A DNA stretch of 64,000 nt. Origin: Nocardioides sp. QY071. Lineage in GTDB: Bacteria; Actinomycetota; Actinomycetes; Propionibacteriales; Nocardioidaceae. The stretch lies in the NCBI RefSeq assembly GCF_029961765.1, contig NZ_CP124681.1, positions 4,030,001-4,094,000 of the forward strand. Direction: 5' to 3'. The notes under the pieces are model-generated. The model searched no databases. It was not told where the DNA came from and saw only the letters and a program-made list of their open reading frames with translations. The first letter of the stretch is position 1. Every line of letters begins with the position of its first letter. Of this stretch, positions 34,410 through 36,744 are shown piece after piece. The position numbers and the translations under genes are program-made.

Positions 34410-34856
34410 GTGAGCACCCCCGACGTCGACGACCTCAGCAGCGACCTCACGGTGTACGCCGCCCGGCTGGTCCGGCTGGTGCGCCGCGAGCACGCTCCGT
34501 CGGCCGGCATCCGGGTGCTCTCGATCCTCGACGAGACCGGCCCCCTCGCGATCACCGCACTCGCCCAGATCGACCGCTGCTCGCAGCCGACGATGACCGG
34601 CCAGGTCAACCAGCTGGTCGAGGCCGGGTGGTCCACCAAGGAGCCCAACCCCGCCGACGCACGCAGCAGCCTGGTCTACCTCACCGACGCCGGCCGGGCC
34701 GAGCTGGCCCGGATCCGGCAGCTCAGCGCCGCGCTCGTGTCCGAGCGCCTCGCCCGTCGTACCGAGCTCTCCACGAACGACCTCGCGACCGCCGTGGCCG
34801 TGCTCCAGGCCGTCCTCGAACCCGCACCCCCGACCACTCCGGAAGGAAACTCGTGA
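34410..34856 (+). CDS. MarR-family transcriptional regulator
   Basis: A 148-residue winged-helix repressor starting at GTG 34410. The DNA-binding region reads LAITALAQIDRCSQPTMTGQ followed by VNQLVEAGW, and the wing is ADARSSLVYLTDAGRAEL. It is the first gene of an operon with the MFS exporter (GTGA overlap). MarR proteins usually repress their own operon until a small ligand, often the exporter substrate, binds. The palindrome at 34381-34395 is the predicted operator. Confidence 0.95.
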   Translation: MSTPDVDDLSSDLTVYAARLVRLVRREHAPSAGIRVLSILDETGPLAITALAQIDRCSQPTMTGQVNQLVEAGWSTKEPNPADARSSLVYLTDAGRAELARIRQLSAALVSERLARRTELSTNDLATAVAVLQAVLEPAPPTTPEGNS

Positions 34857-36109
34857 CCACCGCCCTCCACGCCGAGACCGACACCGGTTCCGGCTCGTTC
34901 CTCCACCAGCCGCGCGCAGTGTGGGCCGTCGCCTTCGCCTGCGTCATCGCCTTCATGGGCATCGGCCTGGTCGACCCGATCCTCAAGGAGATCGCGGCCA
35001 AGCTCGAGGCGACGCCGAGCCAGGTGTCGCTGCTGTTCACCAGCTACATGGCGGTGATGGGCGTCGCGATGCTGGTCACCGGCGTCGTCTCGACCCGGAT
35101 CGGCGCCAAGTTGACCCTGCTCACCGGACTGGTCCTGATCATCGTGTTCGCCGGCCTGGCCGGCATGTCCGGCTCGGTCGGCGCCGTGATCGGCTTCCGT
35201 GCCGGCTGGGGGCTGGGCAACGCGCTGTTCATCGCGACCGCGCTGTCCACCATCGTCAGTGCGTCCAAGGGCTCGCTGGCCCAGGCGATCATCCTCTTCG
35301 AGGCCGCCCTCGGCCTCGGCATCGCGTCGGGCCCGCTCGTCGGCGGACTGCTCGGCGAGCAGTCGTGGCGCGGCCCGTTCTTCGGGGTCTCGGTGCTGAT
35401 GACGATCGCGCTCGTGGCGACCGCGGTCTTCCTGCCCGCGACCCCGCCGGCCGCCCGTCGTACGACACTCGCGGACCCGTTCAAGGCCCTCGCCTACCCC
35501 GCGCTCGCCGTGATGGCCGCGGTCGCGGTCTGCTACAACCTCGGCTTCTTCTCACTGCTCGCCGCCGGCCCGTTCGCGCTGCCCGAGGCCGGGATCATGC
35601 AGATCGGCTGGATCTTCTTCGGCTGGGGCGTGCTGCTCGCCGTCGCGTCGGTCGCGCTCGCGCCGTGGGTACAGCGCAAGGTCGGCACGGTGCCCGCGCT
35701 GATCGGGGCGCTGACCCTGTTCGCGCTCGACCTGCTGCTGATGGCCGTCGGCGCCTCCACGTCGACCGTCGTGATCGTGGGCATCGTCATCGCCGGCGCC
35801 TTCCTCGGCGTCATCAACACCCTGGTCACCGAGGCCGTCATGGGCGCCGCGCCCGTCGAGCGGCCGGTCGCCTCGGCGGCGTACTCCTTCGTCCGCTTCA
35901 CCGGCGGCGCCGTCGGCCCGTACGTCGCCCTCAAGCTCGCCGAGCACCAGGGTTCGGCCGCGCCGTTCTGGTTCGGCGGGATCGCGGTCGCAGTCGGTGT
36001 CGTGGTCCTCGTGGCCGGCGCCCGCACCATCCACACCGCTCTCCACGGCGCCCCCGCCGCCCACTCCCCCGAGGAGGCGGAGGCCGAGGCACTCGGCGAC
36101 CTCAGCTGA
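34853..36109 (+). CDS. MFS transporter (probable drug/metabolite exporter)
   Basis: A 418-residue, 12-helix major facilitator starting at GTG 34853. Helix 1 carries the DHA1-like AFMGIGLVDPILKEIAAKLEAT, the loop 2-3 motif is VVSTRIGAKLTLLTG, and helix 5 has the antiporter-type GLGIASGPLVGGLLGE motif C. Cotranscription with a MarR repressor points to inducible efflux. The last codons and stop fall in the left arm of the nested palindrome at 36102-36223. Confidence 0.94.
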   Translation: MTTALHAETDTGSGSFLHQPRAVWAVAFACVIAFMGIGLVDPILKEIAAKLEATPSQVSLLFTSYMAVMGVAMLVTGVVSTRIGAKLTLLTGLVLIIVFAGLAGMSGSVGAVIGFRAGWGLGNALFIATALSTIVSASKGSLAQAIILFEAALGLGIASGPLVGGLLGEQSWRGPFFGVSVLMTIALVATAVFLPATPPAARRTTLADPFKALAYPALAVMAAVAVCYNLGFFSLLAAGPFALPEAGIMQIGWIFFGWGVLLAVASVALAPWVQRKVGTVPALIGALTLFALDLLLMAVGASTSTVVIVGIVIAGAFLGVINTLVTEAVMGAAPVERPVASAAYSFVRFTGGAVGPYVALKLAEHQGSAAPFWFGGIAVAVGVVVLVAGARTIHTALHGAPAAHSPEEAEAEALGDLS

Positions 36110-36223
36110 CCCGGCCCGAAGTGGCCCGCAGACTCAGCCGACCCGGCAGAAAGTGTCGCTCGTGACCGTCACTTTCTGCCGGGTCGGCGGAGTTTCGGAG
36201 CTACTTCGGGCCGGGTCAGCTGA
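36102..36223. repeat. 122-bp nested palindrome between convergent genes
   Basis: The outer arms (36102-36122 and 36203-36223) are a perfect 21-bp inverted repeat. A symmetric 9/9-nt internal loop follows, then inner arms (36132-36155 and 36170-36193) of 24 bp with one mismatch, closing a 14-nt loop. The inner stem contains CCGACCCGGCAGAAAGTG. Both convergent stop codons (MFS at 36107-36109, thioesterase at 36216-36218) lie inside the outer arms, so both proteins end Ser-stop from the same CAGCTGA. It would act as a strong bidirectional terminator, and may be a dispersed palindromic repeat. Confidence 0.85.
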
Positions 36224-36680
36224 AGATCATGCAGCTGGAGCTCGCGTAGGCGACCAGCTTGCCGCGGCCGTCGTACAGCTTCGCCTCGGCGAGGGCGGTA
36301 CGGCGGCCGCGCTGCAGCACCGTGCCGACGGCACGCAGCCGGCCGGAGTCGACGGTGACCGGCTTGAGGAACTTCACGGTGAGGTCGAGGGAGGTGTAGG
36401 CCTCGCCGACGGCGAGCGTGGAGTGGACCGCGCAGCCGCAGGCGGAGTCGAGCAGGGTGGCGAAGACCCCGCCGTGCACGCTGCCGATCGGGTTGTAGTG
36501 GCGCAGCTCGGGGTCGAGCTCGAAGATCGCAGTCCCCCGCTCGGGCACCTCGAAGCCCACGAACCCGAGGGTGTCGGCGATCGGCGCTGCCGGGAGGTGG
36601 CCGTCGAGGATGGCGTGCAGTTGCTCGAACCCGTCGAGCGCGCCGGGGTCGATCTGGGTCTGGATCGCGGACTCAGTCAT
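36216..36680 (-). CDS. PaaI-type acyl-CoA thioesterase (hotdog fold)
   Basis: A 154-residue hotdog-fold protein starting at ATG 36680. The family motif NPIGSVHGGVFATLLDSACG carries the catalytic-region His-Gly-Gly and Asp, followed by TSLDLTVKFLKPV. These enzymes hydrolyse CoA thioesters, often aryl-CoAs. An ATG 36 bp upstream would add a Ser/Gly-rich extension that is less typical. Convergent with the MFS gene. Confidence 0.92.
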   Translation of the reverse strand: MTESAIQTQIDPGALDGFEQLHAILDGHLPAAPIADTLGFVGFEVPERGTAIFELDPELRHYNPIGSVHGGVFATLLDSACGCAVHSTLAVGEAYTSLDLTVKFLKPVTVDSGRLRAVGTVLQRGRRTALAEAKLYDGRGKLVAYASSSCMIFS

Positions 36681-36744
36681 GGCCCCATCAGACCAACCCG
36701 AGGCTGAGTCTGTCAATGAGACCTGGGTCGCCTATGCTGGCACG

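Follow-up and report, generated by a model that had tools for sequence, protein, structure and literature searches.

Phased mirror-symmetric repeat arrays with a candidate partner nuclease in Nocardioides, a putative analogue of the REP-RAYT systems

The closest described systems are the REP-RAYT systems, for which the accessible part of one source reports that rayt genes are flanked by inverted REPs, that gene and repeat coevolve and that the number of REPs is tied to the presence of rayt (PMC2817692). The REP unit is given, in the available part of a further source, as a palindrome of 20-40 bp with a GTAG or CGTC tag (PMC3733652). In similarly partial sources, EDxHD is the name of a nuclease family (PMC3943268) and MTES_1575 is named as a Vsr-family REase (PMC3710099).

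As in REP/BIME-RAYT (TnpA-REP) and REPINs, a dispersed, extragenic and species-specific repeat stands here in inverted copies on both sides of an enzyme gene, and as in REP-RAYT, enzyme and repeat appear to co-diversify, as far as the accessible portion of PMC2817692 describes those systems. Unlike in REP-RAYT, the enzyme is a Vsr/EDxHD-like nuclease, a Y1 transposase was not found in 9 array-bearing genomes, and the repeats on either side of the helically phased centre keep a strict period (32, 31 or 22 bp). The array unit is directional and, as judged by eye, GCGTC precedes the core in some units and GCGCC in many. In its modelled form, the nuclease has the fold of the catalytic domain of I-Bth0305I (Z 10.8) and Vsr (Z 9.4), together with the conserved E, D, H and D; unlike EDxHD/Vsr-like homing endonucleases it has an AbiEi-like N-terminus, and unlike the EDxHD homing endonucleases its gene lies in an array of genome-wide repeated units rather than within an intron or intein at a single target. 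The N-terminal half is similar to the AbiEi antitoxin (type IV TA) by profile and predicted fold, but it is fused to a nuclease domain, with one gene between the arrays in two intact elements. The C-terminal domain resembles PF18741 (below cut-off) as in the DUF559/REase_MTES_1575 nucleases, but is associated with dispersed phased arrays, an association that was not met in the accessible literature. No published description of dispersed phased arrays with such nucleases was found in a search that reached few subscription papers, and array and nuclease together have the look of a genetic element, selfish or domesticated, of a kind not described before. The reading preferred here, to which a rough probability of 0.6 is given, is a two-part element in which a phased, mirror-symmetric array of ~32-bp units goes with a chromosomal nuclease gene as a nuclease-driven analogue of REP-RAYT, the palindrome at 36102-36223 being a non-coding copy of that element.

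The palindrome and its dispersed family

Within the window (the whole stretch of 64,000 nucleotides that was analysed), the palindrome lies at the facing ends of the genes for an MFS-type transporter (34853..36109, plus strand; own gene call, start uncertain) and a PaaI-type thioesterase (36216..36716, minus strand; longest open reading frame), both named from their translations. Its geometry, as given by a sequence-only reading of this DNA, was exact on re-reading: perfectly complementary outer arms of 21 nt (36102-36122 and 36203-36223), a 9/9 internal loop (36123-36131 and 36194-36202) and inner arms of 24 nt with one mismatch (36132-36155 and 36170-36193). The repeat search returned 87% complementarity over arms of 60 nt (36102-36161 and 36164-36223), and the fold energies were -111.4 kcal/mol (z -14.3) for one strand and -103.4 (z -15.1) for the other, with 0/200 shuffles as good in either case.

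Outer and inner arms each carry a copy of one unit, set 32 bp apart (83% and 76% alike). The "nested palindrome" is therefore made up of a tandem array and its mirror image opposite, with GACCCGGC plus 24 nt occurring twice and then twice more in mirror orientation. On the plus strand, the first direct unit of 32 bp occupies 36108..36139 with its core GACCCGGC at 36108-36115 (seen in the sequence, the repeat search and the core-pair scan), followed at 36140..36155 by the inner half of the second, GACCCGGCAGAAAGTG, an inner form present in most array centres listed for this genome. The centre (36156..36169) has a core-to-core offset of 38 bp, the commonest phase class, and is followed on the minus strand by the inner half of the second inverted unit, CACTTTCTGCCGGGTC (36170..36185), and by the first inverted unit of 32 bp (36186..36217) with its core GCCGGGTC at 36210-36217. 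Copies of TCAGCTGA stand at both ends, the left one (36102..36109) holding the MFS stop codon (TGA, 36107-36109) and the right one (36216..36223) that of the thioesterase (36216-36218, minus strand), confirming that both stops lie inside the outer arms; it is plausible that the repeat has shaped the coding ends of both genes. Two Rfam matches of the hairpin to miRNA precursors stayed below the gathering threshold (29.6 of 49 and 23.8 of 52 bits) and were taken as chance.

The sequence-only reading had doubted a simple terminator and suspected a dispersed element, and both views held, since the genome carries dozens of family copies, the palindrome is one of them, and no intrinsic terminator (a stem-loop and then a T-tract) was found in 35900-36420 (0 sites). 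Its third suggestion, a duplication by inversion, applies at most in part, since n direct units are followed by a phased centre and then by m inverted ones, with n and m often unequal. The genome-wide search that it proposed was run with GACCCGGCAGAAAGT at up to 3 mismatches and gave 308 matches, against 111 for the reversed control. Family members consist of direct copies of the 32-bp unit (the core GACCCGGC and a species-specific part), a centre and inverted copies. Tandem pairs of the form GACCCGGC-N24-GACCCGGC numbered 71+65 = 136 in the window's genome (G000), with 0 in the control, and 41 arrays were called within the fetched stretches of G000, not the whole genome, with each half of one split array taken as an array and a few one-sided arrays among them. 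The usual forms were ++--, +++--- and ++++---- at a spacing of 32 bp, with the inner pair GACCCGGCAGAA...TTCTGCCGGGTC in most of the G000 centres listed. One array (L042 7913-7970; G000:C1:5187913-5187970) showed the core order + - + - with spacings of 18, 14 and 18, resembling two palindromes shifted against each other by a single 32-bp unit. On the 5.59-Mb contig G000:C1, no 32-bp tandem core pair was listed from 2.46 to 3.41 Mb, a stretch in which a 22-bp family does occur.

In the 145 genomes searched, the GACCCGGC tandem pattern was counted 116 times in G014, 38 in G081, 21 in G064, 11 in G083, 7 in G072, 4 in G011 and 0-2 times in the rest. With a second core, CGAGTCGGC, 20 genomes of the genus each showed 10 or more tandem pairs, where the controls gave 0; the control had single matches in 4 other genomes. 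In a scan of genome contigs, at least some matches lay outside Nocardioidaceae (Streptomyces, Chloroflexota and others), and among the matches listed the arrays were one-sided where displayed.

Siting, turnover and phasing of the arrays

By our own gene calls, 27/41 arrays lie between convergent genes, compared with 74/328 background adjacent pairs (Fisher 5e-8), or 26/40 with the split array counted once. The other contexts were tandem (10), divergent (2), inside a gene (1) and unresolved (1). When the inner sides of the split array were excluded, 52 gene 3' ends faced a convergent array, 39 of them within 10 nt of the first or last core, and in 19 of these 39 the stop codon overlapped the core by two bases.

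A total of 26 array pairs had both flanks homologous, and the comparison of the site in relatives, also proposed beforehand, could be made among them. Seven of these pairs were with Nocardioides sp. SLBN-35, a near-identical strain with flanks 100% identical; arm unit number differed in 3 and not in 4. At the window's site the array was ++-- in G000 and ++--- in SLBN-35 (L209), one extra 32-bp unit. Among the other 19 pairs, 17 carried an array (15 when two genomes under two names are counted once, at 11 different G000 sites) and 2 carried none according to the array caller. The units at orthologous sites were of the own genome's type in the G081, G014/carbamazepini, G064 and LHD-245 cases, and those of G083 were close to the units of G000. 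At the level of sequence, arrays are thus seen here to persist at their sites while their units take the local type.

The window's gene pair was kept at 6/22 of the thioesterase loci listed, with arrays in G000 and G014 (where the units are of its own type) and a remnant in G083. The site was array-free in G042, G056 and G081, where the two stops overlapped by 8 bp or lay 0 and 2 bp apart, compared with 106 in G000. At the array-free site of G042, a single TCAGCTGA palindrome holds both overlapping stops, and in G000 a copy of TCAGCTGA stands at either side of the array, so that a target-site duplication, the copying of one arm onto the other (arm conversion) or mere descent may each account for it at the window's site.

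The offset from the last direct to the first inverted core was 17-19, 37-39 or 48 bp in 37/38 centres of G000, with one at 79. Across 105 centres, 67 of them from other genomes and with exceptions such as 24, 53 and 56, the arm-to-arm distance was quantised in steps of ~10.5 bp (Rayleigh length 0.82 at 10.5 bp, best period 10.45). For the 22-bp family of the same genome, the centres fell at 19-20, 29, 32-33, 41-42, 52 and 63-64 (n=17; R 0.70 at 10.5 and 0.74 at 11). These Rayleigh values are not probabilities, because array copies are related by descent and their offsets are not independent draws, though units and centres do differ between genomes. The phasing points to proteins sitting on one face of double-stranded B-DNA. 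The centre is palindromic as well: in 67 centres, the inner positions 16-21 paired more often than shuffled and with several pair types, so hairpin formation may matter too.

Convergent siting with many ends touching stop codons, persistence at orthologous sites, a very stable hairpin and the above-chance pairing of the inner stem would all suit arrays kept by the host as bidirectional terminators or 3'-end stabilisers of convergent genes, with the nuclease a passenger settled in one of them. This explanation is nevertheless considered unlikely, since no intrinsic-terminator-like site was found in 35900-36420, a hairpin requires neither a fixed period of 32 bp (or 22 bp) nor a centre phased at 10.5 bp, the unit type differs between species at the same sites, the repeat period follows the nuclease phylogeny (see below) and the same gene pair occurs without an array in G042, G056 and G081. 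If the two-part element holds, an array may in addition serve both of the genes between which it lies as a bidirectional 3' end.

Helical phasing and a cooperative-looking architecture would also be expected of protein-binding sites for chromosome organisation, serving a nucleoid protein, a topoisomerase or a segregation factor with the nuclease incidental, and the megabase-scale stretch of the contig with no tandem pair listed would agree with this. Such a role appears improbable, as the genus holds several repeat families, each adjoining its own nuclease gene, the units are species-specific and empty sites are tolerated.

The nuclease gene and its repeats

For the two-part element, the coding partner is a gene found in three arrays that are split by about 1.1 kb, in the window's genome (1776474-1777794), Nocardioides sp. 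TF02-7 and Nocardioides sp. LHD-245. Its product of ~320 aa matched AbiEi_4 and MTES_1575 (PF18741) in Pfam, both below cut-off and the latter with the C-terminal domain, and the AbiEi profiles of PADLOC (best E 1.5e-10 and 3.2e-10 for the two proteins); NCBIfam and PDB sequence searches with the nuclease gave no useful match. In Foldseek's own ranking of hits to an AlphaFold model built from five homologues (mean pLDDT 82.8), AbiEi came first (E 0.0057), and re-alignment of the list gave Z 10.8 (rmsd 2.5, 96 aligned) for the catalytic domain of I-Bth0305I (3r3p), Z 9.4 for Vsr (1cw0) and, for the N-terminal part, Z 7.9 (rmsd 9.5) for the AbiEi antitoxin. Conserved residues were E213 (89/90 homologues), D246 (82/90), H264 (89/90) and D273 (86/90), which in the model match the EDxHD signature by order and fold, not by residue-level superposition. 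The gene product is thus predicted to be a nuclease like Vsr and the EDxHD homing endonucleases with an AbiEi-like N-terminus.

In the window's genome, a second array-embedded paralogue lies in a 22-bp array (L396 1642-2800; G000:C1:2841841-2842971), its frame split in two. Both nuclease genes in array centres of this genome are split across two frames, which may mean that its arrays are relics or that there are indels in the assembly; nuclease activity in this genome is doubtful, and other species have intact genes. The third homologue of this genome is more distant (L405; G000:C1:2497000-2501300; E 1.8e-18) and has an open frame of 366 aa, and a scan of its flanks for the 22-bp core reported no array.

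The AbiEi matches of profile and fold could suggest a defence or toxin-antitoxin-like system, the arrays marking self DNA or sequestering an AbiEi-like nuclease. This is very improbable, as the two intact elements (L164 and L180) hold one gene and no second between their arrays and the gene is interrupted in the window's genome.

With regard to the wider distribution, nuclease homologues were found in 130/145 genomes searched, including 88/88 of the genus. The 90 loci taken for examination, a non-random set, were the best match of each of 30 genomes and 60 from further down the list with rows skipped, 89 from the genus and one (G107) from another family; flanks of 330 bp on each side of the matched part were scored for 89 (L283 was left out because of a short flank), with control flanks 390-720 bp away. 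At a z threshold of 4, picked after the scores had been seen, and a null of 60 order-1 Markov resamplings per locus, tandem arrays were found on both sides in 51/89, on at least one side in 78/89, inverted matches between the sides in 78/89 and any of these in 88/89, compared with 0/89, 4/89 and 0/89 for the first three in the control flanks. The periods of significant flanks were 22 (55), 32 (41), 31 (27), 21 (3) and 30, 33 and 34 (1 each), and the repeat sequence varied from homologue to homologue. When 88/90 rows were labelled as 3-turn, 2-turn or inverted only, the period tracked the nuclease tree with 11 class changes, compared with a shuffled mean of 35.4 (0/200 as low). A clade of six (L270, L274, L278, L287, L288 and L290) has inverted repeats outside the gene and no tandem signal over the threshold, and is perhaps a simpler form of the element.

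Across the phylum, homologues were present in 102/296 genomes, and a sample of 29 loci outside the window's genome gave 10 with inverted repeats (3 of them with tandem), 4 with one-sided tandem only and 15 with nothing. At L329 and L355, homologues in other families, the repeats are 37-38 and 28 bp, not whole helical turns. No nuclease homologue was found in phages; plasmids gave 6 weak ones, 2/6 annotated DUF559.

To relate the nuclease to the dispersed arrays, units were compared between the two. In 11/11 testable genomes, the nuclease-adjacent units resembled the own genome's dispersed units above those of other genomes (by core type, 6 and 5 genomes; permutation p 0.0014 and 0.0083), the unit filter having dropped 2/13 (G011 and G014), of which by eye G011 is discordant, its nuclease array being unlike most of its dispersed units, and G014 concordant. 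A 31-bp GACCGGGCA family was dispersed in 9/10 genomes of one nuclease clade and absent from 3/3 others. For the second paralogue of the window's genome, a dispersed 22-bp family was predicted beforehand and then found (41 tandem pairs, 19 arrays); chance was judged there from pattern length, as the core is identical when reversed and the reversed-pattern control is therefore uninformative. In G083, arrays (11 pairs) go with weak nuclease homologues only (best E 2.4e-8) and with a remnant at the window's site, a single case that fits loss of the enzyme followed by decay.

Proposed mechanism and its meaning

We infer, from sequence comparison, that the arrays are mobilised, as well as each step by which this would happen, recognition included. 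The nuclease would recognise and bind the units along one face of the DNA, assembling on the phased array, and would nick or cut the DNA there; recombinational repair from other arrays would copy units, homogenise the family and alter copy number, and would now and then found an array at a new site, such insertions surviving best directly after stop codons. The concordance of units would also be expected if a nuclease did no more than home into arrays already resident. We also lean, on balance, towards a broader claim, that Vsr/EDxHD homing-type nucleases in Nocardioides and relatives took up the REP-RAYT way of life independently a second time, as many enzyme-repeat pairs (32-, 31- and 22-bp), each keeping tens of helically phased mirror arrays at gene 3' ends and rewriting all of them upon a change of specificity.

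REP elements mobilised by a RAYT, a Y1 tyrosine transposase, would share the logic of an enzyme gene set between inverted copies of an extragenic repeat that is dispersed in the genome, as the accessible part of PMC2817692 has it; this is hardly credible here, because Y1_Tnp (PF01797) was found in 0/9 array-bearing genomes and the same search was positive in 5/14 control genomes. Foldback reads can produce palindromes, and such an artefact, named by the sequence-only reading as what would overturn it, can practically be dismissed with the same array in the separate SLBN-35 assembly and related arrays at the site in other species.

If the two-part element is real, bacteria would have a new class of dispersed element, one whose enzyme can be tested, and REP-RAYT-like systems would have arisen more than once, from unrelated enzymes. 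It would also explain how non-coding repeats at fixed sites evolve in concert throughout a genome, and would provide many natural pairs of enzyme and target in which the recognised DNA is long and periodic, as well as a lead to the function of the AbiEi/DUF559-like genes that are carried by 88/88 genomes of the genus searched.
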